Assembly: GCF_002246015.1 (NCBI RefSeq)
Contig: NZ_NOLJ01000001.1
Coordinates: 282,096-346,095 of the forward strand
Direction: 5' to 3'
DNA: 64,000 bases
DNA from: Nostoc sp. 'Peltigera membranacea cyanobiont' 210A
GTDB taxonomy: Bacteria; Cyanobacteriota; Cyanobacteriia; Cyanobacteriales; Nostocaceae
Under the pieces are notes generated by a model. It saw only the letters and a program-made list of their open reading frames with translations, was not told where the DNA came from and ran no database searches. Below are positions 15,465 to 55,777 of this stretch, piece by piece; within the stretch, counting starts at the first letter, position 1; each line of letters starts with the position of its first letter. Made by a program: the position numbers and the translations under genes.

Positions 15465-16328
15465 TTAACTCCTGGTTTCGATATCGTATAAATTGCAGAG
15501 GGTGAGGAGTTTTTGTTTAAGGCGATCGCGCAGACTCTCAGGTGATACAATCACGCAATCTTCCCAATACCGGGATACTTCTCGAATCAGCCAGAAAGGA
15601 TTAGCTACTCGCCGCACCACCTGACGCACATCATTATTCATGTCATCCTCAATATCATCTTCTTTCGGTTGATAGGCTTTAGCTAGCCAACCTCGAAAGT
15701 GTAATTGCACTTTTACATAATCAAGTTCACCCCGCCAATCTCCACTTGTAGGGACAACAGACTTAATTCGCTCAAAGCTTAAGCAACGATTGTGCCAAAG
15801 TTCGCTTAATTCTGGGATATCGTTTTCTACGTCTGCTGTCTCTTCGCACCAAATCATGAGATAGAAGCGTTTCTCAAAGAAGCGCACTTCAGCGTGACGA
15901 ACTTTGTAATCTAATTCCTGACCTTGAGAGTTGAAATAGAGAAGATAGAAAGGCTGTTTTGCTTTACTTAGCTCTTCTATCGTATTTCGCCATTCCTGGA
16001 TAGGTTGACTAAGTTGTTTCATCAGCAATTGACGAAGAGGCGTTTCGAGATTGCCCCGTTCTAGTAAAAGTGCAAGTACAGTTTGCGCTTCTCCTATGTG
16101 ACCTGCATCATTCAAAGCTTTTATAGCCTGCTGTAAGGCATTAATTTGGTTAGAGTCAAGCGTAAAGGGCTTTCCGACCTCTACAGATTGTTGTGCGATC
16201 GCCACTATTAAGCCCGAAATACTCGGTTCTTTGCCCCAAGTGATATTGAGTTGGCGAGCGATCGCTTCTAATTGTTCCTTAGTTCCTGGCGGAATTGACA
16301 GTGTAATCGTTTCTTTTTTTCTCGGCAT
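15465..16328 (-). CDS. WYL-domain transcriptional regulator linked to the type I-D cas locus
   Basis: 287 residues. A basic N-terminus (MPRKKETITLSIPPGTKEQLEAIAR) looks like a ribbon-helix-helix or similar DNA-binding start. A helical middle follows, and from about 115 a WYL-type domain (PFYLLYFNSQGQELDYKVRHAEVRFFEKRFYLMIWCEE) and a WCX-like C-terminus (RYWEDCVIVSPESLRDRL). It is divergent from the cas operon. WYL proteins of this kind sit beside cyanobacterial subtype I-D loci; Sll7009 of Synechocystis 6803 was described as a negative regulator of its I-D system. A similar role here is inferred. Confidence 0.85.
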   Translation of the reverse strand: MPRKKETITLSIPPGTKEQLEAIARQLNITWGKEPSISGLIVAIAQQSVEVGKPFTLDSNQINALQQAIKALNDAGHIGEAQTVLALLLERGNLETPLRQLLMKQLSQPIQEWRNTIEELSKAKQPFYLLYFNSQGQELDYKVRHAEVRFFEKRFYLMIWCEETADVENDIPELSELWHNRCLSFERIKSVVPTSGDWRGELDYVKVQLHFRGWLAKAYQPKEDDIEDDMNNDVRQVVRRVANPFWLIREVSRYWEDCVIVSPESLRDRLKQKLLTLCNLYDIETRS

Positions 16329-16444
16329 CTATAAATTGTAATTATACTATTGACAGAAATGGTATTTATAGCTATTTTATATGTATACCAAGTTAATCAA
16401 TAATTTCAATACCAAAAAACACAATGTTACTCGCTAGGCAGATA

Positions 16445-16473
16445 CGAAAAAAGCCAGAGCTATACCCTGGCTT
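16445..16473 (-). terminator. Minus-strand intrinsic terminator at the end of the mini-CRISPR
   Basis: AAGCCAG (16451-16457) and CTGGCTT (16467-16473) form the stem. Read on the minus strand, the hairpin is followed by TTTTTT. It would end a leftward transcript coming from the degenerate CRISPR repeats just to its right and so insulate the WYL gene. Confidence 0.65.
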
Positions 16474-16570
16474 GCAACCCCTGATAGGGATTTATAAAAT
16501 TGTGTTAACGCCTTGATCACATCTTTTCTACATTTTCAATCCCTGCTAGGGATTAGCGTACAGTTTCAAG
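16471..16570 (-). CRISPR. Degenerate two-repeat mini-CRISPR upstream of the cas operon
   Basis: On the minus strand, AATCCCTAGCAGGGATTGAAAA (split as AATCCCTAGCAGG + GATTGAAAA, 16533-16554) and AAATCCCTATCAGGGGTTGCAAG (split as AAATCCCTATC + AGGGGTTGCAAG, 16471-16493) resemble the 3' part of the array repeat, which ends AATCCCTATTAGGGATTGAAAC (split as AATCCCTATTAGG + GATTGAAAC). The upstream parts are diverged. About 26-30 bp of spacer-like DNA lies between them, beginning TGTAGAAAAGATGTGATC. A terminator follows at once. It could be a relic, or a working guide of the CreR/CreA kind. Confidence 0.6.
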
Positions 16571-16662
16571 GCTTCTTTAGTATACATCTCAAAAATTTCG
16601 GTGAACATTTTTTTGTAGAACTAGATTAACTTTATCATTTTTTTCCTACAGACAAGAATATG

Positions 16663-16675
16663 TTATATTCAGGAG
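16663..16675 (+). promoter_or_regulatory. Predicted -10 and ribosome-binding site of the toxin-antitoxin pair
   Basis: TTATAT/TATATT at 16663-16669 could be a -10; a good -35 is not seen. AGGAG at 16671-16675 lies 9 bases before the ATG at 16685. Confidence 0.45.
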
Positions 16676-16684
16676 AACTAAACC

Positions 16685-16936
16685 ATGAACGAACAAACAT
16701 TACTAGAAAGAATTACATTTAACCCCCAAATCTTTGGCGGTAAACCGATCATTCGAGGTCGTCGCCTAGCTGTTGAACATATTTTAGGAATGTTAGCAGT
16801 AGGAGATACTATTGAAACTTTGCTAGAAGCTTATCCCTGGCTAGAACGGGAAGATGTACAAGCCTGTTTAGTCTATGCACGAAGGTTAGTTGGTCATGAA
16901 CGAGTTGAACCTTTATTGATAGAGTATCCAAGGTGA
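16685..16936 (+). CDS. DUF433 antitoxin-like protein
   Basis: 83 residues. The DUF433 signature is clear: ITFNPQIFGGKPIIRGRRLAVEHILGMLAVGDTIETLLEAYPWLEREDVQACLVYAR. This small helix-turn-helix-like family is the usual partner of DUF5615 PIN-like toxins in cyanobacteria. It starts after a good AGGAG site and overlaps the next gene by 4 bp (GTGA), so the two are translationally coupled. It sits between the mini-CRISPR and cas10d. Confidence 0.88.
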   Translation: MNEQTLLERITFNPQIFGGKPIIRGRRLAVEHILGMLAVGDTIETLLEAYPWLEREDVQACLVYARRLVGHERVEPLLIEYPR

Positions 16937-17292
16937 AAATACTGCTAGATACTTGCATTAATGCTAGGGTGCGTATTGATTTACAAACAACTGGGTATGA
17001 TGTAGTTTGGTCTGGAGATTGGCCAAAAGATCCAGGTGACGAGGAAATTTTAGCAACCGCCTATCGTCAAGGTAGGATTTTAGTCACCCTTGATAAAGAT
17101 TTTGGAGAGTTAGCAATTCTGCGGGGAAATCCTCACTGTGGTATCTTGCGCTTAGTTAATCTCTCAACGAAAGAACAATCAATAGTTTGTTTGCGGGTAC
17201 TTCAGCTTTACGGAAACGAATTATTCTCTGGTGCAATTGTAACTGCTGAATTAGATAGAGTCAGAATTCGCCCACCTGAAAATAGGGCTTGA
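16933..17292 (+). CDS. DUF5615 PIN-like toxin
   Basis: 119 residues starting with GTG inside the stop of the DUF433 gene. PIN-like features: acidic LLDTCINARV at the start (Asp near 5), DVVWSGDWPKDPGDEEILATAYRQGRILVTLDKDFGELA with several conserved Asp/Glu residues at about 28-60, and a short C-terminal part. Known members are predicted RNases of toxin-antitoxin modules. The stop is 122 bp before cas10d on the same strand, so read-through into the cas operon is possible. RNase activity itself is inferred from the family. Confidence 0.85.
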   Translation: MKILLDTCINARVRIDLQTTGYDVVWSGDWPKDPGDEEILATAYRQGRILVTLDKDFGELAILRGNPHCGILRLVNLSTKEQSIVCLRVLQLYGNELFSGAIVTAELDRVRIRPPENRA

Positions 17293-17414
17293 AAATTTAT
17301 TCAATAAAAACTCGTACTAGTGGCACAAGAAATTAAGACAGACTATGGTGATTGTTGACCACTTGGTGAGAGTGAGTTTGGTATTAAATCTATTTACAAT
17401 TTATATCTCTCAAT

Positions 17415-20111
17415 ATGATTAAGCGCAGTCGGCTTTTAAATGCTCCTCCCAAAACCTTGGAGGAGCGTTATTTCAGTGAAATCCGCCCCCGGCTTTACGA
17501 AAATCATGCACATCACCATCAAACTGGTGTGAGAACGGGTACGACCCTTGCAGAGCATCTTGATTCTGCGTGTCAATTTCTTTTGACAGTTAGCCGAATA
17601 GCAGGAGTAGCAGAAGATAAAAGACCTTTGTTACTAGCAGCAACTGCTGTACATGACCTGAATAAATTAGAAGGTTCCCAAGGGCGTAATGTCAAAACCT
17701 TAGCGAGAAACCACGAATTTTTACAAGAACAACTTGAAAAAGCTTGCGTAATAAAATTCGTAGTTACAGAAGATGACTGGGAATTAGTTAGAAAACTAAT
17801 TGAACGTCATTCAGATCATCATGTGACCGATGGTTCAAGGTTTTTGCCCGAAGACGAGAATATTGACCGTTGGGCAGCGATGGTTACAGGTTCTGACTTA
17901 TTTGATTTAGGAATTCCAGAAGCAAAACGTTTTCGGAAAGTTCAAAATAAGTTAACTATTGCATTTAATCGACCTTCTAATCTTTTCAGAATACGCATAT
18001 CTGAAGACAAAGGCTATATTACAGCCCTATTGCTGGGTGCTTGCGAAGAGGTTTTAGAAAAGTATGGGTTAAATCCTTTAGCAATTTTCCCTGATGGCGA
18101 ACTTTTTGAAGGAGAAGCTTTACCAAATGTAGATTTTACAAAAGAAATAGCTGCTGTTTGGCAAAGTAAAATTGACCAAGTTTTTGGGAATAATATCGAA
18201 AGACTTGTCAGACCTACCAAGGATGGTATTAAAGTTACTTATCAAGCCATCCAACAAAACATTGAGGAAGTTTTGGTAAATGTTGAGGCTCTTTTAGAAA
18301 GGAAAAAAGCTGGATATAAATCAGACAAGATTGCTAAAGATGTAACTAAGTGGGGTGATGCTGCTGGTGCAGATGCACTAATAAAAGCGGCTGAACTTCA
18401 GTTATTACCTGTAAATAATGCAGAGGAATTTGCCATATCTGAAGGTTTAAAAGCAGCTTACCTCAGTTATAGAGAATCAGGATTAAGCCCTAAAGAAGTT
18501 TGGGATAAAATTGCTCATCATACGGGTATATCCGAACTTCAGCGTACTGCAATTGAGCCATTTAATGGTCAATATGGGCGACCTTTATTTGCTGCTAAGG
18601 CTGCTGTTAAAGGAATTGAGGGTATTAAAGAAGCTCTACAAGAATCTTTCCAACTAAGAAAGGAAAGTACACAAATATCTGAAGAAACAGAAGTATCTGA
18701 AGAAATGATTGCAGCCGTTAGCCGAATGGTAAATTTACCTTTTGCTATTCGGTTAAATGGAGCCAATGATTTAAATGCTTATGTAGAAGCAAATCCCAGA
18801 CAAAGATGCTCTTTAGGTTCTACTTCTACTGATATAGATGAGCTAATTTCAGATAATATGCCCCCTGGTACAAAAGTACAGGCTTTTTCTAATCGCTTAC
18901 CGGGTGGTATCAGTGCTGAACCGAAAAGACAAGCAGATTCAATTGCAGCTTTAGCTTACCAATTAATGGCAGTCGGTGCGAACTTTCCTGCTGTTAAAAA
19001 ACAAGACCCGCTTTATTTGCACTTAGCATTACCTAAAGGTTCTGCTCCAGAACTGTTGATAATTTGGCGTGAACTTTTAAAACAACTTGCAGCGACAAAT
19101 GCTGAAGGTGGTACTGTCACTATTGATGAATTAAAATTATATAAAGATAACCAGCTTGAATTTAAAGCTAACAAAGTAGTTGGTTTGGCATTGCCAAAGC
19201 GTCCTGATTTTGTTCATACATCTGTCATTATTCCTTTACTTTGGGGAGATGTTAATAGTTCTTTAGCTTTACTAAAATCACTGAGGCTTGCTTTAGAAAT
19301 TTCCTTGTCTTTAGATATTGGCTTTCCTTTTACCTTGAGTAGCAATCTAGAAGTTGAGTTATCTAATGATGTTTATGGACGAATAGAGGGAATTCCTTCT
19401 GCACTGCAAACTTTATTAGGAAATGGACAATATCAGCAACGCCAAGATGCAGAAAAAATTCTTGAGCGACTACGTTGCATTGGCAAACTAGCAACATCTA
19501 TTGCAAGTATTCAGAAAGCTGATGATTGTTTGTATGATTTGGCTCGTGCTTGTGTCAGACCAATTGAACTTTATTATGTCTTGCTACGTTGGACTCTGCG
19601 AGAACAAGATGAACCAAACTTGAGTGTTATTTGGAGTCGCATTTGTGAGCCGTTAAATACTTTACTGGAGAGCTTTATGCCGGATGAAAACTTACTCTTA
19701 ACTAAATATCTTCGAGAAGCTGCTCAAGTTGCAGCAGAGGGAAAAATTTGGGGAAGTTCTTTTAAACGAACTGCTCAAGCAGAACCGTTTACAGCTTTTA
19801 TTGCTGCTATTCGTTCTCAAAAGCCTTATTTGGGTTTAGATGTAATTTTTGCTGCTTTAGTACAGCAATATCATACTCGCTTAGACCGTATCCGTGAGCA
19901 TCACGTAGGTGCAACAAAGTATGAACAAATCAAGCGTTATTACGAGCTATTACGAAAACTTTATGAGGAGGTTTATTCAGCACGTCCTGAAAAGTTTTTA
20001 TCTGACCAAAAAACTTTAGAAGCTGCTTATTTATTCTTCCTTGAAGAAGCACGTAAACAACTAAAGAGTCAATCGGAAGATGAATCTATCGAAACGACTA
20101 CAACTGTTTAA
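17415..20111 (+). CDS. cas10d: Cas10d (Csc3), large subunit of subtype I-D Cascade with HD nuclease
   Basis: 898 residues. The N-terminal HD domain is visible: H48 in AEHLDSA, HD at 80-81 in TAVHDLNK, and IERHSDHHVTDG near 135. In subtype I-D this HD domain supplies the nuclease that is normally on Cas3. A Cys-containing region (NPRQRCSLGS) and a long, mostly helical C-terminal part with palm-like segments follow. No GGDD cyclase motif is seen, as expected for Cas10d rather than Cas10 of type III. First gene of the effector operon, csc2 follows 17 bp downstream. It recognises the PAM and binds DNA within Cascade. Confidence 0.95.
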   Translation: MIKRSRLLNAPPKTLEERYFSEIRPRLYENHAHHHQTGVRTGTTLAEHLDSACQFLLTVSRIAGVAEDKRPLLLAATAVHDLNKLEGSQGRNVKTLARNHEFLQEQLEKACVIKFVVTEDDWELVRKLIERHSDHHVTDGSRFLPEDENIDRWAAMVTGSDLFDLGIPEAKRFRKVQNKLTIAFNRPSNLFRIRISEDKGYITALLLGACEEVLEKYGLNPLAIFPDGELFEGEALPNVDFTKEIAAVWQSKIDQVFGNNIERLVRPTKDGIKVTYQAIQQNIEEVLVNVEALLERKKAGYKSDKIAKDVTKWGDAAGADALIKAAELQLLPVNNAEEFAISEGLKAAYLSYRESGLSPKEVWDKIAHHTGISELQRTAIEPFNGQYGRPLFAAKAAVKGIEGIKEALQESFQLRKESTQISEETEVSEEMIAAVSRMVNLPFAIRLNGANDLNAYVEANPRQRCSLGSTSTDIDELISDNMPPGTKVQAFSNRLPGGISAEPKRQADSIAALAYQLMAVGANFPAVKKQDPLYLHLALPKGSAPELLIIWRELLKQLAATNAEGGTVTIDELKLYKDNQLEFKANKVVGLALPKRPDFVHTSVIIPLLWGDVNSSLALLKSLRLALEISLSLDIGFPFTLSSNLEVELSNDVYGRIEGIPSALQTLLGNGQYQQRQDAEKILERLRCIGKLATSIASIQKADDCLYDLARACVRPIELYYVLLRWTLREQDEPNLSVIWSRICEPLNTLLESFMPDENLLLTKYLREAAQVAAEGKIWGSSFKRTAQAEPFTAFIAAIRSQKPYLGLDVIFAALVQQYHTRLDRIREHHVGATKYEQIKRYYELLRKLYEEVYSARPEKFLSDQKTLEAAYLFFLEEARKQLKSQSEDESIETTTTV

Positions 20112-20128: not shown

Positions 20129-21157
20129 ATGCCCATTTCAAAACTTTCCTCGGTTCTAGCAACAAGTTATGAGAACTTCCCCAAAGGACGTTTTATTACT
20201 TTAGTTGTTTTAAGGACAACCCATTCTGAAACTATCTTCCGCACAGAAGGTTCAGGTGAACCAATGTGTAGCGAGTTTGTCCAAGCTGGTTTAGAGGGTG
20301 AAAATCAAAAAACTATAATTCAACGCTTGGTAATGACTAAGCGTAAACAAGTCGCACCAGAAAGACGCTACGGACGAGAACATTTAAGAGCGCATGAGCT
20401 TTTATACACTAACCCTAAAGATGGCTCTCTTTGTTCCTTAAATACTAATGCACCTTGTGAAATGTGTGTAGATTGTTTCCTCTACGGCTTCGCGGCTGGT
20501 GGGGGCGGCGCTCAAAAAAGTCGCATTTGGACTGAAGACGCTTTTAGTATTTTACCTGCTAGTGATGTTGTAGGCGATCGCACCATAAACGCCATCTACG
20601 AAACTGGCACAATGCGCGATGAAAAAGGTAACGCATCAACAGCTTTAAATACCAGCGAATACATCAAACCAGGCGTGCATTTTCTAGATGTCGTCACCCT
20701 AAAAGATGTAACTGCGGATGAACTGCGTTATATCATCGGTAACATTCTGTTCACAAGTCGTTATGGTGCAGTTTCCAGTCGTGTTGGACGCATGGAAAAC
20801 GAGATATTAGGTGTATTTGGTAGTATTACCGAACTTCCTAGTTCTCTGGAACTTGTACAAGCTACCTATGACGTATTAGGTAAGCCTTTAGAACATCCCT
20901 TGAATATTAATCAATTAATTACAGCCAGCAAACAAGTAATTGCTAATTGGAAAAATAAGAGAGGGGTTTCTGTGCAACTATCTGAAGAAGAATTAGCAAA
21001 TTTGCTGACTGATGTAGAAACTAATTGGTCAGAAGCAGAACGTGATAATTTCCTCAAGCGTTTAACGCAATCCTATGAATCCTTCCGTCAGGTTGCACCT
21101 GAGAAGAAAAAGGCCAAAGCTAAAGCCAAGAATACACCAGTTGAAGTAGAGATTTAG
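20129..21157 (+). CDS. csc2: Csc2 (Cas7d), crRNA backbone subunit of subtype I-D Cascade
   Basis: 342 residues. The family start KGRFITLVVLRTTHSETIFRTEGSGEP and the Cys-rich LCSLNTNAPCEMCVDCFLYGFAAGGGGAQKSR stretch (a zinc-type element, about 110-140) are typical for Csc2. Several copies form the filament holding the crRNA. The C-terminus ends in a Lys/Ala-rich tail (EKKKAKAKAKNTP). AGGAG-like GGAG lies before the ATG. csc1 follows after 3 bp, so the genes are co-expressed. Confidence 0.96.
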   Translation: MPISKLSSVLATSYENFPKGRFITLVVLRTTHSETIFRTEGSGEPMCSEFVQAGLEGENQKTIIQRLVMTKRKQVAPERRYGREHLRAHELLYTNPKDGSLCSLNTNAPCEMCVDCFLYGFAAGGGGAQKSRIWTEDAFSILPASDVVGDRTINAIYETGTMRDEKGNASTALNTSEYIKPGVHFLDVVTLKDVTADELRYIIGNILFTSRYGAVSSRVGRMENEILGVFGSITELPSSLELVQATYDVLGKPLEHPLNINQLITASKQVIANWKNKRGVSVQLSEEELANLLTDVETNWSEAERDNFLKRLTQSYESFRQVAPEKKKAKAKAKNTPVEVEI

Positions 21158-21160
21158 GTT

Positions 21161-21919
21161 ATGTCAACAATCCCTTTTCAGCAGGCAAAACTTGTTGAAT
21201 TATACTGTCTTGAACCAGTCTTTTTTGCCTCTAGGGAGTTGTCTGATACCTATTACACTGAGGGGGTAATTGGGAATTATGCTCTTACCTATGCTTTAGG
21301 TTGGGTAAATTCCCCCTATCGCCTCCAAGGTCAGGCTACAGGACGACCAACCTACAAAGAAGATTTGCAACCAATAGCACAAGCTGGTTATATCTTACCA
21401 GCTTCACCAGTAGGTAGAGTTACATTCAGATTTGAACGTTTCAATGCTCTTTCTGATTCTTACTGGTATGCAATGACTAATAACCGTGTTGCTACGGCGC
21501 GGGAAGATTTACCATTACAACGCCAAGGGAAAAAACCAAGTTCATTTAGACCAAGTAATTTTCCGCAAACTGGAAGACTGCGGATGATTGAACGCAGAAA
21601 CAAATTTCAAACTTTGGTATTTGGAAATTACCAATTACCAAACTATATTCGCCTTGGTAAGTTCATGAGTAAAGTCAAGGTGAATGTGCTTAATGAATTT
21701 CCTGTGACTTTACTACCAGAAGGTGAATATCAAAGTCAACATTATCTAAATGCTGCTGATTTACCACAGCAAATAGAGGCTTTAGCGTTCGATTTAATTT
21801 CTATCCCTCCTGCACCCATCATTAAAAATCTTCGTTTTCGGGGCGCTGCTTGGCAAGTTGGAGAAATCGTTGTACCAGCAGGGTTACATTTTTGCGGCAG
21901 AGAAAGTAACAATGAGTAA
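21161..21919 (+). CDS. csc1: Csc1 (Cas5d-type), subtype I-D Cascade subunit
   Basis: 252 residues. The N-terminus (AKLVELYCLEPVFFASRELSDTYYTEGVIGNYALTYALGW) is the family hallmark. It is the Cas5-like RAMP protein that caps the 5' handle end of the crRNA in I-D Cascade. It overlaps the cas3 start by 8 bp (ATG at 21912 inside its last codons). Basic surface stretches such as RMIERRNKFQ are consistent with RNA binding. Confidence 0.95.
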   Translation: MSTIPFQQAKLVELYCLEPVFFASRELSDTYYTEGVIGNYALTYALGWVNSPYRLQGQATGRPTYKEDLQPIAQAGYILPASPVGRVTFRFERFNALSDSYWYAMTNNRVATAREDLPLQRQGKKPSSFRPSNFPQTGRLRMIERRNKFQTLVFGNYQLPNYIRLGKFMSKVKVNVLNEFPVTLLPEGEYQSQHYLNAADLPQQIEALAFDLISIPPAPIIKNLRFRGAAWQVGEIVVPAGLHFCGRESNNE

Positions 21920-24191
21920 TCAAAGATTAGTTATCAGATTAGAACCGCGCAGTATTTCAGCTTGTGCATCTTTGCCAGATGAACTCTCTTTTATGGGGAA
22001 TGCACTTCAGCATCAAGTTGATGTATTTGAAGAATCTAAGGATGCAGATATTATCCTTGATTTAGCACCAACTGGCACAGGTAAAACCAACGCAGGGCTA
22101 ACAGTATTAAAACATCAGCCAAATAAAAGTGCTGTTTACATTGCTCCAACTAATGCTTTAATTGAACAGCAAACAGAAGCAGCAAAAAAGTTTGTTAGTG
22201 ATGCTAACTTACCTCATATAGTCAAATCAGCTTCTGCGAAAGATATTAAAAGCTGGTCTAACGATAAAGTTGGCAGTCGTTCAGGGGAAAAGCTGTATAA
22301 CGTATTACGGAATCCAGCTACAGTCTTTCCTGATGTTGGGGCTAATACGCCCATCATTTTAGTCACAAATCCTGATATCTTTTACTATGCAACTTTCTTT
22401 GCATATAACAACCTAGATAGAGGTAATATTGCCAGTAGTTTTTACACCAAATTTTCGACAGTTATTTTTGATGAATTTCACCTCTACGATGCTAAACAGC
22501 TAGTAGGAATGTTGTTTTATCTCGCTTATTCTCAAGTTTTCCGCTTTTTTCAGGACGGCCGTAAAATAGTTTTGCTAACAGCTACACCAGAACCAGCTTG
22601 TGAATTAGCATTGCAGAATTTAAAACAGGCTGGTGTTAAGATAGCAAGAATTGATGGAGAAGTAGGTAATACTAATCTTTTACCGTCGCAAACAGCAGTT
22701 AATCTGGAATTAAGACCAAAACCAGATAGTAAGGAAGAGTGGTTAACAGAGTTAGTAGCAGAAGTTGTCCAACGTTTTCGAGACAGACCTGATGAAAATG
22801 GTGCTGTAATTCTGGACTCGCTTAATAATATTGATTGTCTATCAACTTTATTAAGACAGCAAGGACTTGGTGATTACATCGGACGTATTACAGGCCCTGC
22901 ACCCAAAAAAGATAGACAAAGGGCTATGCAGTGTCAAATTATTTTGGCTACTAGCACTGTAGATGTAGGATTTAACTTTGGAAGACATCCTGAACCGAAA
23001 CGACAAAATTTAGATTGGTTGATTTTTTCAGCACGCGATCGCGCCGCATTTTGGCAGAGAATTGGTAGAGTAGGGCGTGTTTTGGGTAAATCAGAAACTA
23101 ATATTGATTCAGAAGCCATTGCTTACTTACCTGCTAACGCCTGGGAAGAAGGTTTAACCTCTCTAGATATTACTGGGGGACGTACAGCGCTAAAAGACTT
23201 ACTTGAAACACTTCCCTGTTTAGATAAGCCTTTTTTAAAAGCTTACTGGCGTTCAGAAGCATCTCTAGAAATTGCACGTCCTTTGTTATATCTGGAAGAA
23301 GTGTTTGAAAATATAGCAGGTGCTGAATTAATTCCAAAACTGTTTGAAACTTTAAAATCAGTTTTAGAAGGTAAACGCAATTGGGAAGACTATCGCCACA
23401 GAATGCAAGTTATACGAGGCGCTGAAAACATTGCTGACAAGTCTCTAGAAAAATTAAAAACAGGCTGGAAATATCTTAAAGGTGGTCAAGCTTTCGTCAA
23501 AACCTATATCAAGGTAAAATCCCCTGAAGAGTGGGATGATTTACGTTCTGGACGCACAACTTTAGAAGCATACGAGGATGTGTTTAAACAAGATAATGTA
23601 CTGGCTGAACTAAAAGAATTTGCTGAGGTTTTTAGTACAAGCTATGCACCATTATTTAGCTTTCGTTATAGTCTCTTTGAAAATTTGCCAATTCGTGACC
23701 CGCATAATTTAGTCACAGATGAATCTGAAGAAACACAGTTAGAACCTTTTCATCTATTGCGCTATTACGAATTTGCTCAAAATGGTGACTTTATCGAAAT
23801 CAAAAGTCGTGCTACCGAAACCTATAAACTGAGCTTTAGAATGCGTTATATTGGTAGCCGACAAGAGTTTGTTAATACAGAGCTAAATAAGTTAACAGCT
23901 TTTAAAAATTGTCAAGTTGTCCGCAGTATTGGAGAAGCAGTACGACCAACGCCTGAATTACAGGCATTGTCAAAACACTTGTTACCAGGAGTAATTATTT
24001 GCCCCAGAACTAATGCTGCTGCTCTTTTCCAATTACATAAACAAGGAATTATTTCCTATACCATAAATATTGTTTGCGATGATGCTGAAAAACAATATGA
24101 GTTTTTAGCAGGATTGTCAGGAATTTTAACAATGGCAATGAAGTTTAAACAGTTACGTCTCCCAGATGATGAAGTTTTTATTGCAGGATAA
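21912..24191 (+). CDS. cas3: Cas3' helicase without HD domain (subtype I-D)
   Basis: 759 residues from the ATG at 21912 (MSNQRLVIRLEPRS), which overlaps csc1 by 8 bp; an ATG at 21858 lies deep inside csc1 and is less likely. Superfamily 2 motifs: Walker A APTGTGKT (52-59), DEFH in VIFDEFHLYDAKQ (about 187), LLTATPEP (about 223), and motif VI FWQRIGRVGRV (about 380). There is no HD nuclease domain, as expected in I-D where Cas10d carries it. It unwinds target DNA after Cascade binding. A strong hairpin follows its stop codon. Confidence 0.95.
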   Translation: MSNQRLVIRLEPRSISACASLPDELSFMGNALQHQVDVFEESKDADIILDLAPTGTGKTNAGLTVLKHQPNKSAVYIAPTNALIEQQTEAAKKFVSDANLPHIVKSASAKDIKSWSNDKVGSRSGEKLYNVLRNPATVFPDVGANTPIILVTNPDIFYYATFFAYNNLDRGNIASSFYTKFSTVIFDEFHLYDAKQLVGMLFYLAYSQVFRFFQDGRKIVLLTATPEPACELALQNLKQAGVKIARIDGEVGNTNLLPSQTAVNLELRPKPDSKEEWLTELVAEVVQRFRDRPDENGAVILDSLNNIDCLSTLLRQQGLGDYIGRITGPAPKKDRQRAMQCQIILATSTVDVGFNFGRHPEPKRQNLDWLIFSARDRAAFWQRIGRVGRVLGKSETNIDSEAIAYLPANAWEEGLTSLDITGGRTALKDLLETLPCLDKPFLKAYWRSEASLEIARPLLYLEEVFENIAGAELIPKLFETLKSVLEGKRNWEDYRHRMQVIRGAENIADKSLEKLKTGWKYLKGGQAFVKTYIKVKSPEEWDDLRSGRTTLEAYEDVFKQDNVLAELKEFAEVFSTSYAPLFSFRYSLFENLPIRDPHNLVTDESEETQLEPFHLLRYYEFAQNGDFIEIKSRATETYKLSFRMRYIGSRQEFVNTELNKLTAFKNCQVVRSIGEAVRPTPELQALSKHLLPGVIICPRTNAAALFQLHKQGIISYTINIVCDDAEKQYEFLAGLSGILTMAMKFKQLRLPDDEVFIAG

Positions 24192-24197
24192 GTAATT

Positions 24198-24226
24198 AAA
24201 TTCTCGCACCATTGGTGCGAGAATTT
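24198..24226 (+). terminator. Hairpin behind cas3 (possible terminator or processing site)
   Basis: AAATTCTCGCACC (24198-24210) pairs perfectly with GGTGCGAGAATTT (24214-24226) around a 3-base loop ATT. Only TTT follows, so termination may be partial. It separates cas10d-csc2-csc1-cas3 from the oxygenase-cas6 unit. Confidence 0.65.
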
Positions 24227-24267
24227 GTAGAACATCGATTTATAAGCATATTTCTCTCATATCCCCA

Positions 24268-24888
24268 GTGAAACACTATCAACAACAAAGCAACGCCTTC
24301 CCCAGCGACTACCTAAACAACTTGTGGGGAGAAATCCAAGCTTGTCCTTACTTTGCTATCAACAACCTCAACCGCGATTTTATCGCCACCAAAGGATTTT
24401 CTGTAGTATTTCAGCGTTCTGGATTAGCAAAAGTAGAACAGCAGTTTCCCTACTTCAAACCTTACCTCGATTTGGCTCTCCAACCGAATTGTAATGCTTT
24501 TTACCTCAATCCTTTACAGCTAAAAGAAGGCTCCCGCGTCGATCCGCATATCGATCGCTCCTTACGTTCCTACAGCAAAACCATTGAACCACCTGCGGTT
24601 GTCAGCGTCCTTTATGTGCGCGTACCTGCGGATATGGAAGGGGGAGAATTGGTATTGCGATCGCACAAACGCCAACTTGGGCAAATTAAGCCCCAATTTA
24701 ATACTTTAGTTTATTTTCAAGGTGATTTAACCCATTCGGTTAACGCAGTCAAAACCCCAGGAAATCGCCTAAGTCTCGTTTGTGAACAGTATAGTTTGAG
24801 TGAAGCTGAACTCCAGGAAATCCCTGAGTTTACTGTAGAGTCAAGAATCACTCAGTCTACAACCAAAAAGAGAAAGTATGCCTCATAG
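24268..24888 (+). CDS. 2OG-Fe(II) oxygenase (prolyl-hydroxylase-like) inside the cas locus
   Basis: 206 residues starting with GTG at 24268. The iron ligands fit the family: H94 and D96 in VDPHIDRS, H156 in FQGDLTHSVNAV, and R167 in PGNRLSLVCEQY to hold 2-oxoglutarate. The double-stranded beta-helix between them (VVSVLYVRVPADMEGGELVLRSH) fits prolyl-4-hydroxylase-type enzymes. It overlaps the cas6 start by 11 bp, so both are translated from one mRNA. Such an enzyme is not a core Cas protein. It could hydroxylate a protein or nucleic acid, or simply be a passenger; the substrate is unknown. The HIP1 and codon context look like the neighbours'. Confidence 0.88.
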   Translation: MKHYQQQSNAFPSDYLNNLWGEIQACPYFAINNLNRDFIATKGFSVVFQRSGLAKVEQQFPYFKPYLDLALQPNCNAFYLNPLQLKEGSRVDPHIDRSLRSYSKTIEPPAVVSVLYVRVPADMEGGELVLRSHKRQLGQIKPQFNTLVYFQGDLTHSVNAVKTPGNRLSLVCEQYSLSEAELQEIPEFTVESRITQSTTKKRKYAS

Positions 24889-25723
24889 TTTAGTGTTGAA
24901 TTTGCTACCTCAATCGCCCATTCCACCCCAATATCTCACAGGTAGACATCTCCACGCCCTATTTTTAACCCTCGTTAGTTCTGTAGATACCACATTGGGC
25001 GATCGCTTGCACGATTCCACTGCTGATAAAGCCTTCACCCTCTCCCCTCTACAAATTACTAATACAAACTCCCCCCTTTTAAAGGGAGGTAAGGGAGGAT
25101 CTAAATTGCAATACTCACATCAACAACCCATTCCCGCCGGAACTCCTTGTTGGTGGCGCATCTCTTTATTAGATGACACTCTATTTAGCAAACTTACCCA
25201 ACTCTGGTTAAATCTTAATCCCAATCGTCCTTGGCATCTTGGCCCGGCTGACTTGTATATTACAAGCATTCAAGGTACACCGCAATCTATTCAACCTTGG
25301 GCAAATGCTAGTACTTATGCTCAATTATACGAAGAAGCCAGCGATTGTAATTCTTCCATTAACCTTAACTTTTCCACGCCTACCGCCTTTCGTCAAGGAC
25401 AGTATGATACTACTCTTCCTACTAGAGAATCTGTTTTCAATTCCCTACTTTCGCGGTGGAATAAGTACAGTGGTATAGAATTTACTCAGATTGCGATCGA
25501 GTCAATATTTCCCTCATTTGTCAATATTCACACAGAAATATTAGCTGATTCCCGCAGCAAATTTATTGGCATTATTGGCGAAGTTACTTATAAAATTTTA
25601 GGGGCAGTTGAACCAATACAAATTAAGCAAATTAACGCTTTAGCTGACTTTGCTCTGTATGCAGGAATTGGTCGCAAAACAACAATGGGTATGGGAATGA
25701 CGCGACGGTTGTATTCTCCCTAA
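24878..25723 (+). CDS. cas6: Cas6 crRNA-processing endoribonuclease
   Basis: 281 residues. The RAMP fold is indicated by the N-terminal strand (MPHSLVLNLLPQSPIPPQYLTGRHLHALFLTLV) and the glycine-rich C-terminal loop GIGRKTTMGMGMTRR. It cuts the repeat transcript to leave an 8-nt 5' handle (ATTGAAAC). His residues for catalysis may be H25/H27 in GRHLHALF, an inference. Oddity: residues about 65-78 (NSPLLKGGKGG) are coded by a repeat, CTCCCCCCTTTTAAAGGGAG, that occurs between genes elsewhere in this window. ATG at 24878 overlaps the oxygenase gene. Confidence 0.92.
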   Translation: MPHSLVLNLLPQSPIPPQYLTGRHLHALFLTLVSSVDTTLGDRLHDSTADKAFTLSPLQITNTNSPLLKGGKGGSKLQYSHQQPIPAGTPCWWRISLLDDTLFSKLTQLWLNLNPNRPWHLGPADLYITSIQGTPQSIQPWANASTYAQLYEEASDCNSSINLNFSTPTAFRQGQYDTTLPTRESVFNSLLSRWNKYSGIEFTQIAIESIFPSFVNIHTEILADSRSKFIGIIGEVTYKILGAVEPIQIKQINALADFALYAGIGRKTTMGMGMTRRLYSP

Positions 25724-25754
25724 TTTCAATAATCATTTCAAAACCACCTAAGTT

Positions 25755-26348
25755 ATGAATCAAACTGAATATATTTCCATTGCGGCATTGAATCAATATG
25801 CCTATTGTCCGCATCGCTGTTGGCGAATGTTTTGTGCAGGAGAATTTACCGATAACCAATATACAATTGAAGGTACAACTTTACACGATCGCGTCCACAC
25901 TACAGGCGATGGACAGCGAGGAGAAACTTGGCAAGTTCGGGCAATTTGGCTGAAGTCTGAGCAATACAAACTCATCGGCAAATCTGACTTAATTGAAGCC
26001 GAATCTGGTCAAGTTTATCCAGTGGAATACAAACGAGGACGTAAAGGCGAATGGGATAACGATGAGTTACAAGTTTGTGCCCAAGCGTTATGTTTAGAAG
26101 AAATGACAGGACAACCAGTTAACACTGGATATATCTATTATGCCCACTCGCATCAACGGCAATTAGTAGAGATTAATCAAGAGTTGAGAAAGAATGCGAT
26201 CGCTACTATTCAATCTGTGACAAATCTTCTAGAAACAGGAGCAATGCCAAAACCAGTTTACAGCAAACGCTGCCAAGGATGCAGTCTTTATTCGCAATGT
26301 TTACCCAAAGCAACAGATAAAGTCGAAAGTTATCAAGAAGTAAATTAA
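25755..26348 (+). CDS. cas4: Cas4 exonuclease (PD-(D/E)XK with iron-sulfur cluster)
   Basis: 197 residues. The iron-sulfur cysteines are C18 (with C22 and C27 nearby, YCPHRCWRMFC) and C173, C176, C182 (CQGCSLYSQC). The nuclease core shows Asp in LIGKSDLIE and the E-x-K element in VYPVEYKRGRKGEW, followed by QVCAQALCLEE. Cas4 trims pre-spacers and selects the PAM end during adaptation with Cas1-Cas2. It starts 31 bp after cas6. A MITE is inserted directly behind its stop codon. Confidence 0.94.
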   Translation: MNQTEYISIAALNQYAYCPHRCWRMFCAGEFTDNQYTIEGTTLHDRVHTTGDGQRGETWQVRAIWLKSEQYKLIGKSDLIEAESGQVYPVEYKRGRKGEWDNDELQVCAQALCLEEMTGQPVNTGYIYYAHSHQRQLVEINQELRKNAIATIQSVTNLLETGAMPKPVYSKRCQGCSLYSQCLPKATDKVESYQEVN

Positions 26349-26357
26349 ATCATACCC

Positions 26358-26461
26358 CAATACAGTTCAGAATGAGCAACAAAACCATCATGTAGAGACG
26401 CGATTTATCGCGTCTTGAAAGACCAATTATCTACACCAATAACCCTTGCTAAACCGTATTT
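26358..26461. mobile_element. MITE-like element, family CAATAC, copy in the cas4-cas1 gap
   Basis: It starts CAATACAGTTCAGAATGAGC and ends AACCGTATTT. The central palindrome is GACGCGAT-TT-ATCGCGTC. Direct repeats AATCATACCC (26348-26357) and AATTATACCC (26462-26471) flank it, a 10-bp target duplication with one change. The reverse complement of 45457-45549 is a clear relative. The insertion begins at the last base of the cas4 stop codon region. Confidence 0.75.
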
Positions 26462-26519
26462 AATTATACCCGATAAATCTATTTATCCAAGCCAAAATTA
26501 TTACTAGGAAGAATCAAAA

Positions 26520-27524
26520 ATGGGAACAGTTTACGTAACACAAACCGATGCTTTTATCGGTAAAGTTGACGAACGTCTCACCGTCAAAGCTGAACAAAAA
26601 ACAATCTTGGATATCCCTTTAATTAAAATAGAGGGAATTGTAGTACTAGGACGGGCTACTATTTCTCCCGCCGTCGTCAGTGAACTTTTAGAACGTCACA
26701 TTTGTTTAACATTTCTCACACAAAACGGACGATATTTGGGGCGTTTAGAACCAGAAGTTACCAAAAATATCTTTGTTCGTAAAGCCCAATGGCAAGCTGT
26801 GGGAGAATCACAACCAGCAATACATTTAGTCAGGGGATTTGTCCGGGGTAAATTGAAAAATTACCGCCATAGCTTACTTCGCACTCAGCGAGAATATCCT
26901 GATGTTGACCTGAATAATAACATCACTCGATTGGAAAACGCGATCGCACCAATCGAAAAAACTAGCAGTATTGATTCCCTCAGAGGTTTAGAAGGTGCTG
27001 GTAGTGCAGCCTATTTCGGTTGCTTTCAACAGCTAATCAAAACCTCAGAATTTCAATTTGAAGCCAGACGCCGCCGCCCACCAACCGATCCAGTTAATGC
27101 GTTACTGAGTTTTGGGTATTCATTGCTACGTCATGATGTGCAAAGTGCTTTAAATATTGTTGGCTTCGATCCCTATCTAGGATACTTACACGTCGAGCGT
27201 TATGGTAGACCTTCCCTAGCCTTAGATTTGATGGAAGAATTTCGTCCTTTAATAGTAGATGCTGTAGTGTTGTCGCTGATTAACAAGCGATCGCTAACCT
27301 CAACTGATTTTACCACCGAACCGCTCAGTGGTGCCGTGTCTTTAACCAAAGAAGGACTGCATACATTTCTTCGCGCCTATCAACAAAAGAAACTATCGAG
27401 TTTCAAACATCCAGTTTTGGGAAACAAATGCACCTACCAAGAATCCTTTGAAATTCAAGCGAGGTTACTGGCTAAATACCTCATGAACGAAATCGATAAA
27501 TATCCTCCTTTAATTCTCAAATAA
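26520..27524 (+). CDS. cas1: Cas1 integrase
   Basis: 334 residues. The metal-binding catalytic triad can be placed: E158 in GLEGAGSAAYFGCF, H224 in LGYLHVERYGRPSLALDL, and D236/E239 in the following DLMEEFRP. The N-terminal beta-sandwich start MGTVYVTQTDAFIGKVDERL is typical. With Cas2 it inserts new spacers at the leader end of the array. It lies 171 bp behind cas4 because of the inserted MITE, so its expression may depend on read-through or on a separate promoter. cas2 follows 13 bp later. Confidence 0.97.
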   Translation: MGTVYVTQTDAFIGKVDERLTVKAEQKTILDIPLIKIEGIVVLGRATISPAVVSELLERHICLTFLTQNGRYLGRLEPEVTKNIFVRKAQWQAVGESQPAIHLVRGFVRGKLKNYRHSLLRTQREYPDVDLNNNITRLENAIAPIEKTSSIDSLRGLEGAGSAAYFGCFQQLIKTSEFQFEARRRRPPTDPVNALLSFGYSLLRHDVQSALNIVGFDPYLGYLHVERYGRPSLALDLMEEFRPLIVDAVVLSLINKRSLTSTDFTTEPLSGAVSLTKEGLHTFLRAYQQKKLSSFKHPVLGNKCTYQESFEIQARLLAKYLMNEIDKYPPLILK

Positions 27525-27537
27525 CTCCCCCACTTCC

Positions 27538-27825
27538 ATGTATATTGTTGTCAGCTACGACATTCCAGAAGATAAGCGTCGGACTAAAATCCATTCGATT
27601 CTTAAGTCTTACGGACAATGGATGCAACTGAGTGTGTTTGAGTGCGATGTCACTCCCACTCAGTATGCTAAACTGCGATCGCGTTTAGCTAAATTGATTA
27701 AACCCGATACCGATAGCGTGCGTTTTTATTTTCTCTGTGGCTGTTGTCAGCGAAAAGTCGAACGTATTGGCGGAGAACAGCCACGAGACGAAACAATTTT
27801 CTTTGCTGAGTCTCCTTCTAGCTAG
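27538..27825 (+). CDS. cas2: Cas2
   Basis: 95 residues, the normal length. The ferredoxin-like start MYIVVSYDIPEDKRRTKIHSIL carries the conserved Asp (D8), and GQWMQLSVFECDVT and RFYFLCGCC follow as expected. Cas2 dimers bridge two Cas1 dimers in the integration complex. The leader and CRISPR array follow directly on the same strand. Confidence 0.96.
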   Translation: MYIVVSYDIPEDKRRTKIHSILKSYGQWMQLSVFECDVTPTQYAKLRSRLAKLIKPDTDSVRFYFLCGCCQRKVERIGGEQPRDETIFFAESPSS

Positions 27826-28093: not shown

Positions 28094-29934
28094 ATTGCAA
28101 TTCATCAAAATCCCTATTAGGGATTGAAACTACTAACAAAGACCTTGAAGGAACTCCGCTCAATATTGCAATTCATCAAAATCCCTATTAGGGATTGAAA
28201 CGAGACTTTCAATCTATGACATTGCACAAATACAACATTGCAATTCATCAAAATCCCTATTAGGGATTGAAACGGAATTCATTATCTCTTTCAGTTGCAA
28301 GTAGTTAAGATTGCAATTCATCAAAATCCCTATTAGGGATTGAAACTTCTTGCCAATACCTTACTGTATATATGTTATAGTATTGCAATTCATCAAAATC
28401 CCTATTAGGGATTGAAACTCTTACATCAGCAATAATTGAGTCAATGACAACCAAAATTGCAATTCATCAAAATCCCTATTAGGGATTGAAACGATTAAGC
28501 ATTATCTTAAGGAGGGTGCTGAATTATTGCAATTCATCAAAATCCCTATTAGGGATTGAAACAAACTATTAACAAATTCAACCAACTTAACAAGAGCAAT
28601 TGCAATTCATCAAAATCCCTATTAGGGATTGAAACCGCGACAAAGTAAACGGAATCTTGTGCCGATTATTGCAATTCATCAAAATCCCTATTAGGGATTG
28701 AAACCCACTAGGTTTTCAATTTCTGCACCATTTTCTAATGATTGCAATTCATCAAAATCCCTATTAGGGATTGAAACACGAAATGAGCCACCAATAGCAC
28801 TGGCTTTTGAGTATTGCAATTCATCAAAATCCCTATTAGGGATTGAAACACGCTTACGTTGCACTCTATCAAGGTTGGAGTCCCAATAATTGCAATTCAT
28901 CAAAATCCCTATTAGGGATTGAAACGAGTAGTGCAATTTGCTCAGTGAAGAACTTTGCATTGCAATTCATCAAAATCCCTATTAGGGATTGAAACTGATT
29001 TCGATGTATCTAATCTACTCCCATGTCAACATTGCAATTCATCAAAATCCCTATTAGGGATTGAAACGGTGTCGAACAGTACACGAATTTAACAACGACA
29101 TGGATTGCAATTCATCAAAATCCCTATTAGGGATTGAAACCCGCAGGAATCCCCGTTGCAGTACTACGAACGAATTGCAATTCATCAAAATCCCTATTAG
29201 GGATTGAAACAATGACGACTGCTCAAATCAGAGAATATCTAGATTGCAATTCATCAAAATCCCTATTAGGGATTGAAACAAAACTGACTTCAAGCTGAAG
29301 CGTACCAGTCCAAGATTGCAATTCATCAAAATCCCTATTAGGGATTGAAACGTGGAAATCATGCCCCGCCTCATGTGCCGCAAGTGGATTGCAATTCATC
29401 AAAATCCCTATTAGGGATTGAAACCTGAAGAGGAAAAAAGGGAATATGTGCTTAATGCGATCGCAAATTGCAATTCATCAAAATCCCTATTAGGGATTGA
29501 AACCCTTTCGCCATAATTTTAGCATAATTCTATCCTATATTGCAATTCATCAAAATCCCTATTAGGGATTGAAACTTATGACTCAACCCATCTCTGTCAA
29601 ATGCAAGCTTATATTGCAATTCATCAAAATCCCTATTAGGGATTGAAACAAAGCATACAAAGCAAGGAAAACTGCGCGATCGCAATTGCAATTCATCAAA
29701 ATCCCTATTAGGGATTGAAACTAATGGTCGTTAGAGTATCGCAGGTGCAGCAAATAATTGCAATTCATCAAAATCCCTATTAGGGATTGAAACAGAATTA
29801 TCAGAGTTTTCATCAGCAATTTCTACGCATTGCAATTCATCAAAATCCCTATTAGGGATTGAAACATTGCTGAGAACCGAAATTGGAACGCAAGCGAATT
29901 GCAATTCATCAAAATCCCTATTAGTGATTAAAAC
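28094..29934 (+). CRISPR. Subtype I-D CRISPR array, 26 repeats and 25 spacers
   Basis: The 37-bp repeat begins ATTGCAATTCATCAAAATCC and ends CTATTAGGGATTGAAAC. All repeats I read are the same except the last (29898-29934), which ends TATTAGTGATTAAAAC, marking the leader-distal end. Repeat starts include 28094, 28165, 28237, 28310, 28382 and, at the end, 29757, 29829, 29898. Spacers are 32-39 bp, apart from one of 42 bp (29425-29466). The 3' ATTGAAAC becomes the crRNA handle, so the array is read on the plus strand, the same as the cas genes. Two spacers (ending near 29466 and 29684) contain GCGATCGC. Confidence 0.97.
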
Positions 29935-54448: not shown

Positions 54449-55777
54449 GTGCCAATGGAAGCGTCTGCTGTCAATCCCATAAATGGTGCATTTAATCCAT
54501 TAAGTGCAGGTGGCGCTAGCAACCTATATAGCGGTAATTCCTTTGCTGCCAATGATAGTTTGTCTGCTGCTAAAGGCAGCCTGTTGACGGGTGGTAGCAA
54601 TCTGTTATTAGGTAACGGTAACAATCCTATTCCAGGTGGCGGTATTAACCCGTTTGCAGGTGATGGTGGCAGTGGGCTTCAGAAATTAATCTTTGAGCGA
54701 TTAAAGTTAGTTCTGGGTGATAACTATTTCAAGGGTATTGACAACACATTAGCAGGAGGTAGTAACCCGTTTGCAGGCAGTGGTTATCCGATCGCAGGTG
54801 GGGCTACCAATCCGTTTGCAGGCAGCAGTAATCCGATCGCAGGTGGCACTACTAACCCATTTGCAGGCAGCAGTAATCCGATCGCAGGTGCTGGAAGTCT
54901 GCTTCAACAATCGCCTTTCGATCCATTGAAAGAAGTTCTTGGTAACAATATACCCTTTAGTAACACTGGCAATACATCTAATTCAGGTAGCCAAACCTTT
55001 AATCAGAGCAACGCACCGGTTGGGAAAGGTAACAAGAACTTTGGTAATAATAACGCAACTATTGGTAATTTTAACTCGGATTATGGCAGTAACAGTGCAA
55101 CCATTGGTAATGGTAACTGGAACTTTAATAATGACAACGCAACCATTGGTAATGGCAACTGGCTATTTGGAAAGAGTAACACAACCCTTGGCAATGGCAA
55201 CTGGGATTGGGACAACGGCAGTAATAATGCAACACTAGGTAATGGAAATTGGCACTTCGGCAGTGACAACGCAACCATTGGAAACGGCAATTGGGACTTC
55301 GGCACTGATAACACAATTATTGGTAATGGTAACTGGGTTTTTACCAATGGAAATGAAATTATTGGTAATGGCAATTGGTTAACAAAGACTGATAACACAA
55401 AGATTGGAAACATCAACAATATCAGCAGTTTAAAGTTATCCCCATTAGGGATAAAAACTGATGTTAACAATCTGATTGACTCTCTTATAGGTAAAATAGG
55501 TCAAAATTTTCTTGGGTTCACGGGAGATTTTGATGTATCAAGTAGCCAAACCTTTAACCGCCTCATCTCTTCTAAAAGTGTTGGTAATGACACTAATATA
55601 TCTAAGGATATTGAGCAACTTTTGGCATCACTCAGCCCAATTCAAGAAAATTTCATCAATTATCAGCCTGTGCAAAACCCTCAACCTGTCTCAGAATCTG
55701 CTTCTTCAGTGTCGTTGGTAGTAATGGGAATAGTATGTTTGCTGTTGTCACTGTTCAAAAAACAACAGTACTGTTAA
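54449..55777 (+). CDS. Asn/Gly-rich repeat protein with TIGNGNW units and a C-terminal helix
   Basis: 442 residues. GTG at 54449 is 5 bases after AGGAG; ATG at 54455 is the alternative. N-terminal third: Asn/Gly/Ser low complexity with NPFAGSSNPIAGG repeats and a helical insert QKLIFERLKLVLGDNYFKG. Middle (about 195-320): roughly eight units of 15-18 residues with the core ATIGNGNWxFGxDN, alternating hydrophobic and polar in a way that suits a beta-solenoid. C-terminal part: a short helical region, then a hydrophobic helix (SLVVMGIVCLLLSLF) and KKQQ, like a sorting or membrane anchor. No signal peptide is evident. Function unknown. Confidence 0.7.
   Translation: MPMEASAVNPINGAFNPLSAGGASNLYSGNSFAANDSLSAAKGSLLTGGSNLLLGNGNNPIPGGGINPFAGDGGSGLQKLIFERLKLVLGDNYFKGIDNTLAGGSNPFAGSGYPIAGGATNPFAGSSNPIAGGTTNPFAGSSNPIAGAGSLLQQSPFDPLKEVLGNNIPFSNTGNTSNSGSQTFNQSNAPVGKGNKNFGNNNATIGNFNSDYGSNSATIGNGNWNFNNDNATIGNGNWLFGKSNTTLGNGNWDWDNGSNNATLGNGNWHFGSDNATIGNGNWDFGTDNTIIGNGNWVFTNGNEIIGNGNWLTKTDNTKIGNINNISSLKLSPLGIKTDVNNLIDSLIGKIGQNFLGFTGDFDVSSSQTFNRLISSKSVGNDTNISKDIEQLLASLSPIQENFINYQPVQNPQPVSESASSVSLVVMGIVCLLLSLFKKQQYC

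Follow-up and report, generated by a model that had tools for sequence, protein, structure and literature searches.

A predicted CreR-type guide RNA antisense to a type I-D CRISPR-Cas operon in Nostoc, with a PAM-flanked match in the promoter region of the same operon

In Nostoc sp. 'Peltigera membranacea cyanobiont' 210A, a 64,000-nt stretch of contig NZ_NOLJ01000001.1 (“the window”, whose positions are used throughout) carries an operon with a complete type I-D CRISPR-Cas set (cas10d, csc2, csc1, cas3', cas6, cas4, cas1, and cas2). The genes around the site of interest and the associated array are the following:

15465..16328, minus strand: WYL-type regulator gene (PADLOC WYL, E 1e-9; Pfam WCX)
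16685..16936, plus strand: putative antitoxin gene (DUF433), the first one past the target described below (PF04255, E 8.7e-23)
16933..17292, plus strand: DUF5615 gene, putative PIN-like toxin (PF18480, E 7.4e-19)
17415..20111, plus strand: cas10d (PADLOC Cas10_Id, 1763 bits)
20129..27825, plus strand: csc2, csc1, cas3', a 2OG-Fe(II) oxygenase gene, cas6, cas4, cas1, cas2 (family searches)
28094..29865, plus strand: canonical type I-D array of 25 identical 37-bp repeats (repeat comparison)

The DUF433 protein is presumably the antitoxin of the small gene pair and the DUF5615 protein its PIN-like toxin; the latter also gives weak matches to Mut7-C and PIN, both below the cut-off. The oxygenase gene (24268-24888) sits between cas3' and cas6 within the I-D operon and has relatives in 24 of 110 I-D loci, 100 of which were covered for at least 8.5 kb downstream; these relatives occur in both Cas10d lineages.

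Between the WYL gene and the DUF433 gene, the minus strand holds a two-repeat unit (“mini-CRISPR”) composed of the following elements:

16579..16584, minus strand: TATACT, putative -10 element for transcription of the mini-CRISPR; the psi-R1 core follows 24 nt downstream
16569-16533, minus strand: psi-R1, degenerate CRISPR repeat (37-mer; 22-nt core 16554-16533), hairpin and TTGAAA end retained
16508..16532, minus strand: guide spacer, 25 nt (gap between the two 37-mers)
16507-16471, minus strand: psi-R2, degenerate CRISPR repeat (37-mer; 22-nt core 16492-16471), identified by core match
16447..16473, minus strand: intrinsic terminator immediately after psi-R2, with a 10-bp stem and six T

The similarity to the array repeat resides in the 3' cores, which are identical to the core of the array repeat at 19 of 22 positions in psi-R1 and at 18 of 22 in psi-R2; elsewhere in the window, both strands considered, only two non-array places reach at least 16/22, namely 55437 on the plus strand (18/22) and the opposite strand of psi-R2 (16/22). 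Similarity over the full 37 bp was rejected as evidence by itself, since it is not significant, whereas that of the cores is; the 37-mers score 23/37 (psi-R1) and 22/37 (psi-R2), no better than the chance maxima in the window, which reach 24, and their 5' halves are, thus, regarded as lost. A lone repeat-like sequence occupies 55422-55458 on the plus strand (24/37 overall, core 18/22). The guide spacer, with its 25 nt, differs from the spacers of the array in the window, which are 32-42 nt long. The terminator stem spans 16473-16451 and the six T finish at 16447 (fold z -4.17), and a T-run at the matching offset from psi-R2 is found in 11 of the 12 loci belonging to the spacer families of the window and of TAGTGACAT. 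At the other end of the unit, the mini-CRISPR would be transcribed from the TATACT at 16584-16579; a TATA(A/C/T)T motif 24-25 nt from the psi-R1 core is present in 12 of the 43 target-bearing loci introduced below, all of them among the 19 that share the window's Cas10d lineage.

Much of this arrangement had been recognised in an initial annotation made from the sequence alone. Its two degenerate minus-strand repeats with a preserved 3' core, its terminator hairpin with six Ts at once behind them, and its placement of the unit between the WYL regulator and the toxin-antitoxin/cas genes are borne out by the core comparison, the terminator fold, and the family searches of the neighbours, respectively, and the intact array, placed about 12 kb away on the other strand, indeed lies on the plus strand at about 11.5 kb. 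The stretch of about 26-30 bp of unique DNA proposed there between the repeats slightly overestimates the true gap of 25 bases. Fold prediction, which the annotation had recommended, gives the hairpin of the array repeat for both copies, with an identical fold and -8.7 kcal/mol for psi-R1, -7.2 for psi-R2, and -7.8 for the array repeat.

The spacer has a match upstream of the DUF433 gene, for which three further features are needed:

16627..16650, minus strand: target protospacer, pairing with spacer positions 1-5, 7-9, 11, 14-17, and 19-21
16651..16653, minus strand: PAM GTC (GAC on the plus strand), from the sequence
16664..16669, plus strand: TATATT, putative -10 element of the promoter of DUF433-DUF5615-cas10d (sequence reading)

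With the spacer start set by the repeat, the spacer TGTAGAAAAGATGTGATCAAG aligns with the target TGTAGGAAAAAAATGATAAAG at 16650-16630 (minus strand), GTC preceding; mismatches fall on positions 6, 10, 12, 13, and 18, resulting in a match of 13/15 when positions 1-17 minus 6 and 12 are counted. The published type I-D PAM is GTN according to the accessible text of two articles (PMC9123187; PMC10212523). By a measure that was picked after the match had been noticed, shuffled spacers were equally good at GTN sites in 2 of 100,000 cases in the intergenic region (16555-16684) and in 16 of 100,000 cases in 15871-17414. The pattern GTYTGTAGNAAAGANGTGAT, with at most two mismatches, has one site in the 8.3-Mb genome, which is the target itself, and its reversed form has 0 + 2 sites genome-wide; since the reversed pattern yields two, the single site is evidence of specificity more than of significance. 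Another seed-like match, TGTAGAA near 16617 (plus strand), was rejected, as it has no GTN PAM and pairs poorly past position 7.

The match falls in the promoter region ahead of the DUF433-DUF5615-cas10d genes, the promoter itself being read from the sequence. The PAM is ten bases from the putative -10 TATATT, which would place bound Cascade over the -35 region, and the corresponding -35 position of the putative operon promoter falls within the protospacer. A consensus promoter scan did not list this promoter, whose -35 is poor; the spacing from the PAM to a TATA(A/C/T)T motif is similar in related loci. The gene directly after the target is the non-cas gene DUF433, and cas10d starts 762 bp past the PAM on the same strand. 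No terminator-like site was found on the plus strand in the interval between DUF5615 and cas10d; cas10d may have a promoter of its own, separate from that of DUF433.

For comparison, 110 distinct I-D loci including the window (48 + 27 + 34 + 1) were compiled from a genome scan giving 24 loci and from searches of genomes of the same phylum; 7 duplicates of 55 loci were removed, as were 6 of 40 loci with no clear cas10d frame (L151, L157, L164, L167, L169, L172), and 40 regions from a Csc2 match list were chosen by strength, the weaker matches being left out. Up to 3.5 kb upstream of cas10d was scanned on both strands. Repeats with three or more copies in one locus were treated as arrays and left out, in the survey as well as in the controls, and a target had to match at no fewer than 9 of 10 seed positions and 12 of 15 positions overall, with no PAM imposed. 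An array end (L104) and two plus-strand array pairs of L106 were left out of the spacer-target comparison.

A non-array repeat-like site is present in 52 of the 110 loci, and in 43 of the 110 its spacer matches the locus's own upstream region. The best target is flanked by GTC in 25 loci and by GTT in 18, i.e., by GTY in 43/43 although the search imposed no PAM; likewise, the unit is antisense to cas10d in 43/43. A second repeat (at least 14/22) accompanies the first in 38 of these loci, while five are without a clear one. Units occur in 19 of the 77 loci of the window's Cas10d lineage and in 24 of the 33 of the other, and in 17 of the former 19 the unit spacer measures 22-27 nt, the exceptions being L137 (17 nt) and L106 (43 nt). 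The window's match ranks among the weaker ones, with mismatches at positions 10 and 13 as well. Within the 3.5 kb upstream, no repeat-like site was found in 58/110 loci and a site but no target in 9/110; hence, the guide device is not universal. In four loci (L150, L152, L158, L159), repeat sites of 21-22/22 upstream of cas10d have no target in the region, and their targets may lie elsewhere. A looser scan, with the repeat threshold at 13/22, was set aside; it returned many chance matches with other PAMs, and the best one had GTC/GTT in 42 of 63 loci. L113/L114 have a palindromic match, which was not used.

In a 49-locus subset, the WYL gene starts 552-2886 bp from cas10d in the 14 loci with a unit; 35 loci have no two-repeat unit, and in 22 of these it starts 160-282 bp from cas10d. 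These distances suggest two possible regulatory layouts.

Several controls bear on the guide-target matches of the set. Shuffled spacers gave any match in 71 of 1480 trials, four of the 71 with GTN, and spacers swapped between families gave, at 13/15 or better, 0 GTN and 26 other matches in 1606 tests. When, at this threshold, the spacer start was shifted from -4 to +5, GTN appeared solely at zero, the nine shifted starts yielding 2-16 other matches. Omission of positions 6 and 12 leaves 38 GTY and 3 other matches at 13/15 or better, and omission of eight other position pairs leaves 13-18 GTY and 2-5 other. The hit criterion disregarded positions 6 and 12 and all positions past 17; it partly builds in the profile of 6-nt periodicity, but not the phase, offset, and swap controls. 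The match rates at positions 6, 12, and 18 (0.21, 0.28, and 0.21) are near chance, which is a lack of constraint and not proof of avoidance.

The 43 spacers fall into 16 families at one similarity threshold and into 12 at a looser one. Among related spacers, changes are found on both sides of the pairing: position 2 of L085 is A in both spacer and target, where the window carries G, and seed differences are shared by spacer and target at position 4 in L124/L129 and at position 9 in L144/L145. Pairwise seed differences are matched in 61 of 67 cases, a count partly helped by the hit criterion. In L085 (G058), a single spacer matches two sites upstream of cas10d, at distances of 1610 and 1411 bp, each flanked by GTC. 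Decay is evident in close relatives, with L018 having kept the unit and lost promoter, target, and DUF433, L001 lacking the target as well as the initial bases of the spacer, and L002 and L082 having lost psi-R1 and the target. As the layout of L018 demonstrates, the unit can outlive its target, and cas10d must use another promoter there.

The first ORF after the target is small and winged-helix-like in the largest group (n = 20, 12 of them listed), a coiled-coil-like small ORF in 11 loci, and of an MNYSVEYIAHK type in five, with others elsewhere; the winged-helix-like and coiled-coil-like labels are a reading of the sequence by eye. Pfam comparison of three small first ORFs left two without a match and one with sub-cut-off matches alone, and the MNYSVEYIAHK ORF has no Pfam match. 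Unnamed ORF families of 50-100 aa head guide-matched operons (e.g., L098, L140, and L003), and regulators, toxins, or other small effectors are possible identities. In many loci, TA-like genes and then cas10d follow the first ORF; the cargo between target and cas10d is often TA-like, comprising DUF433/DUF5615, nucleotidyltransferase-like genes (one tested, Pfam Polbeta), and further genes read by eye as HEPN- or DUF1016-like. Since L003, L006, and L010 carry just a lone 56-aa ORF before cas10d, with no DUF433/DUF5615, the TA genes are optional, which favours CreR-type autorepression of cas with the TA genes as cargo.

Type I-D loci on plasmids provide further candidates. Plasmid pAQ4 of the laboratory strain Picosynechococcus PCC 7002 (NC_010478.1, ~25400-25500, L181) has a clear predicted unit, with the spacer TTAGTGTTCATTGAGGG and the target GTG + TTAGTAATCATGGAGGG (14/15). 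Plasmid ABRG53e of Pseudanabaena ABRG5-3 (L182) has a weaker candidate (12/15, GTC), which ranked below two matches with no PAM or repeat. No unit was found in the 1.3 kb searched of Synechocystis pSYSA, where 88 bp separate the WYL gene from cas3, nor in the 0.9 kb searched of the Stanieria plasmid locus; pSYSA could serve as a natural negative to the pAQ4 unit.

Taken together, 16447-16584 on the minus strand very probably encodes a CreR-type guide RNA with which the I-D Cascade would repress its own TA-cas operon. The inferred steps would be these. A short transcript would begin near psi-R1 and end at the terminator; Cas6 would recognise the retained hairpins, resulting in a crRNA-like RNA with a 25-nt spacer; and the guide-loaded Cascade (Cas10d, Csc2, Csc1, Cas6) would bind GTC and seed at 16653-16627, thereby occupying the -35 region of the DUF433-DUF5615 promoter. 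Read-through from there would extend expression to cas10d and the remaining genes of the operon. The pairing being partial and the spacer short, we propose that bound Cascade blocks RNA polymerase with no cutting. Derepression of the operon would follow when Cascade is scarce, occupied by crRNAs from the array, or inhibited by an anti-CRISPR. The initial annotation had guessed at CreR or CreA from the degenerate repeats beside cas genes and had missed the decisive match between spacer and promoter; its guess is now supported by this PAM-flanked match, by the pairing kept in relatives, and by other I-D loci in which unrelated spacers each find a match upstream in their own locus. A comparison of relatives, as suggested there, gave same-spacer relatives that keep their own targets and a pairing maintained by two-sided seed changes.

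The alternatives differ in what the guide would be for. According to a CreA-like explanation (CreTA/CrePA), it would mainly restrain a toxin that leads the operon; loss or inhibition of Cascade would then release this toxin, rendering the cas locus addictive or abortive. The frequent TA-like cargo between target and cas10d fits this, as does the observation that none of the first ORFs examined looked cas-like, for most of them by eye. Yet there is no DUF433/DUF5615 between target and cas10d in L003, L006, and L010, the TA pair is retained in L004, L009, and L084 with no repeat-like site at all, and the window keeps guide and target without the small ORF that its same-spacer relative L093 has between target and DUF433. 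Moreover, the putative antitoxin DUF433 would be made together with the toxin, so that derepression need not be toxic. We consider a CreA-like role of this kind rather unlikely.

The initial annotation had named a plain relic as the main alternative, i.e., a decaying, functionless two-repeat array from an old CRISPR. Degeneracy of both repeats (23/37 and 22/37) is what this predicts, and decayed copies do exist in L001, L002, L018, and L082; for the window copy, a relic is disfavoured and appears highly improbable, given that this copy retains its hairpins, the TTGAAA end, the spacer phase, the terminator, and a PAM-flanked target and that same-spacer relatives as well as many unrelated spacers match their own targets. 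Even less credible, to the point of being nearly dismissible, is a short ordinary array or the homing guide of a CRISPR-transposon, the likeness to the promoter being a coincidence or an accidental self-acquisition. Type I-D CRISPR-associated transposons do occur in cyanobacteria (Hsieh and Peters 2023, as cited in the available part of PMC10651486), and such spacers are likely to have arisen by self-acquisition; however, after the shuffle, offset, and swap controls, coincidence is no longer tenable for the set, and cas3', cas1, cas2, and cas4 are present in the window.

CreR-type autorepression, the preferred explanation, could also be combined with a CreA-like function. It is conceivable, albeit doubtful, that the cyanobacterial I-D Cascade commonly polices one promoter heading both a TA/small-protein cargo and the cas genes, with CreR and CreA united in one guide. 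If true, shortage or inhibition of Cascade would switch on the resupply of cas and an addiction/abortive module together. RNA-guided autoregulation of cas would, by the preferred explanation, extend to subtype I-D, a type I/III hybrid. The 43 guide-target pairs reveal which PAM (GTC/GTT) evolution has employed with I-D and at which positions it has tolerated mismatches. If Cascade is swamped by other guides during I-D editing or CRISPRi, the expression of cas and TA genes may be disturbed.

CRISPR-derived RNA regulatory elements were reportedly predicted widely by Shmakov et al. in 2023 (NAR), in the form of conserved mini-arrays that are partly complementary to the promoters of cas or cargo genes and belong mostly to type I. 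Our literature search for an I-D case of CreR type returned none in titles and abstract openings, which is not proof of absence; of two I-D reviews, the searched text of PMC11903412 does not mention CreR, mini-CRISPR, self-targeting, or WYL, and that of PMC10212523 does not mention autoregulation or self-targeting.

Among the known systems, the CreA guide of type I-B CreTA modules resembles the unit in the window in having two divergent repeats flanking its spacer and in pairing beside the PAM by positions 1-5 and 7-11, with 6 and 12 not involved (accessible sections of PMC8501985). It differs in that it represses a small RNA toxin, while the target in the window would drive protein-coding genes into cas10d, the first of them being DUF433. 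CrePA, described together with CreTA in the consulted portion of PMC12737573, involves a Cascade-repressed protein toxin and is a possible reading of the cargo in the window. DUF433/DUF5615, however, resemble a protein pair, in which a protein would act as antitoxin to the putative toxin, and L003, L006, and L010 do without DUF433/DUF5615. Closest is CreR (Liu et al. 2023, Cell Host Microbe, as related in the accessible text of PMC13131331, PMC12737573, and PMC12948488), a mini-CRISPR whose spacer of limited complementarity to the cas promoter is read as a means of Cascade autorepression. The window, too, has two repeat-like sequences around one spacer near cas genes, with limited complementarity to the adjacent promoter region, a GTC PAM, and a paired seed. 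CreR, however, is reported for types I-B, I-E, and V-A in the part of PMC13131331 available, whereas the present unit belongs to type I-D with a GTY PAM, and TA-like or small-ORF cargo comes first after its target.
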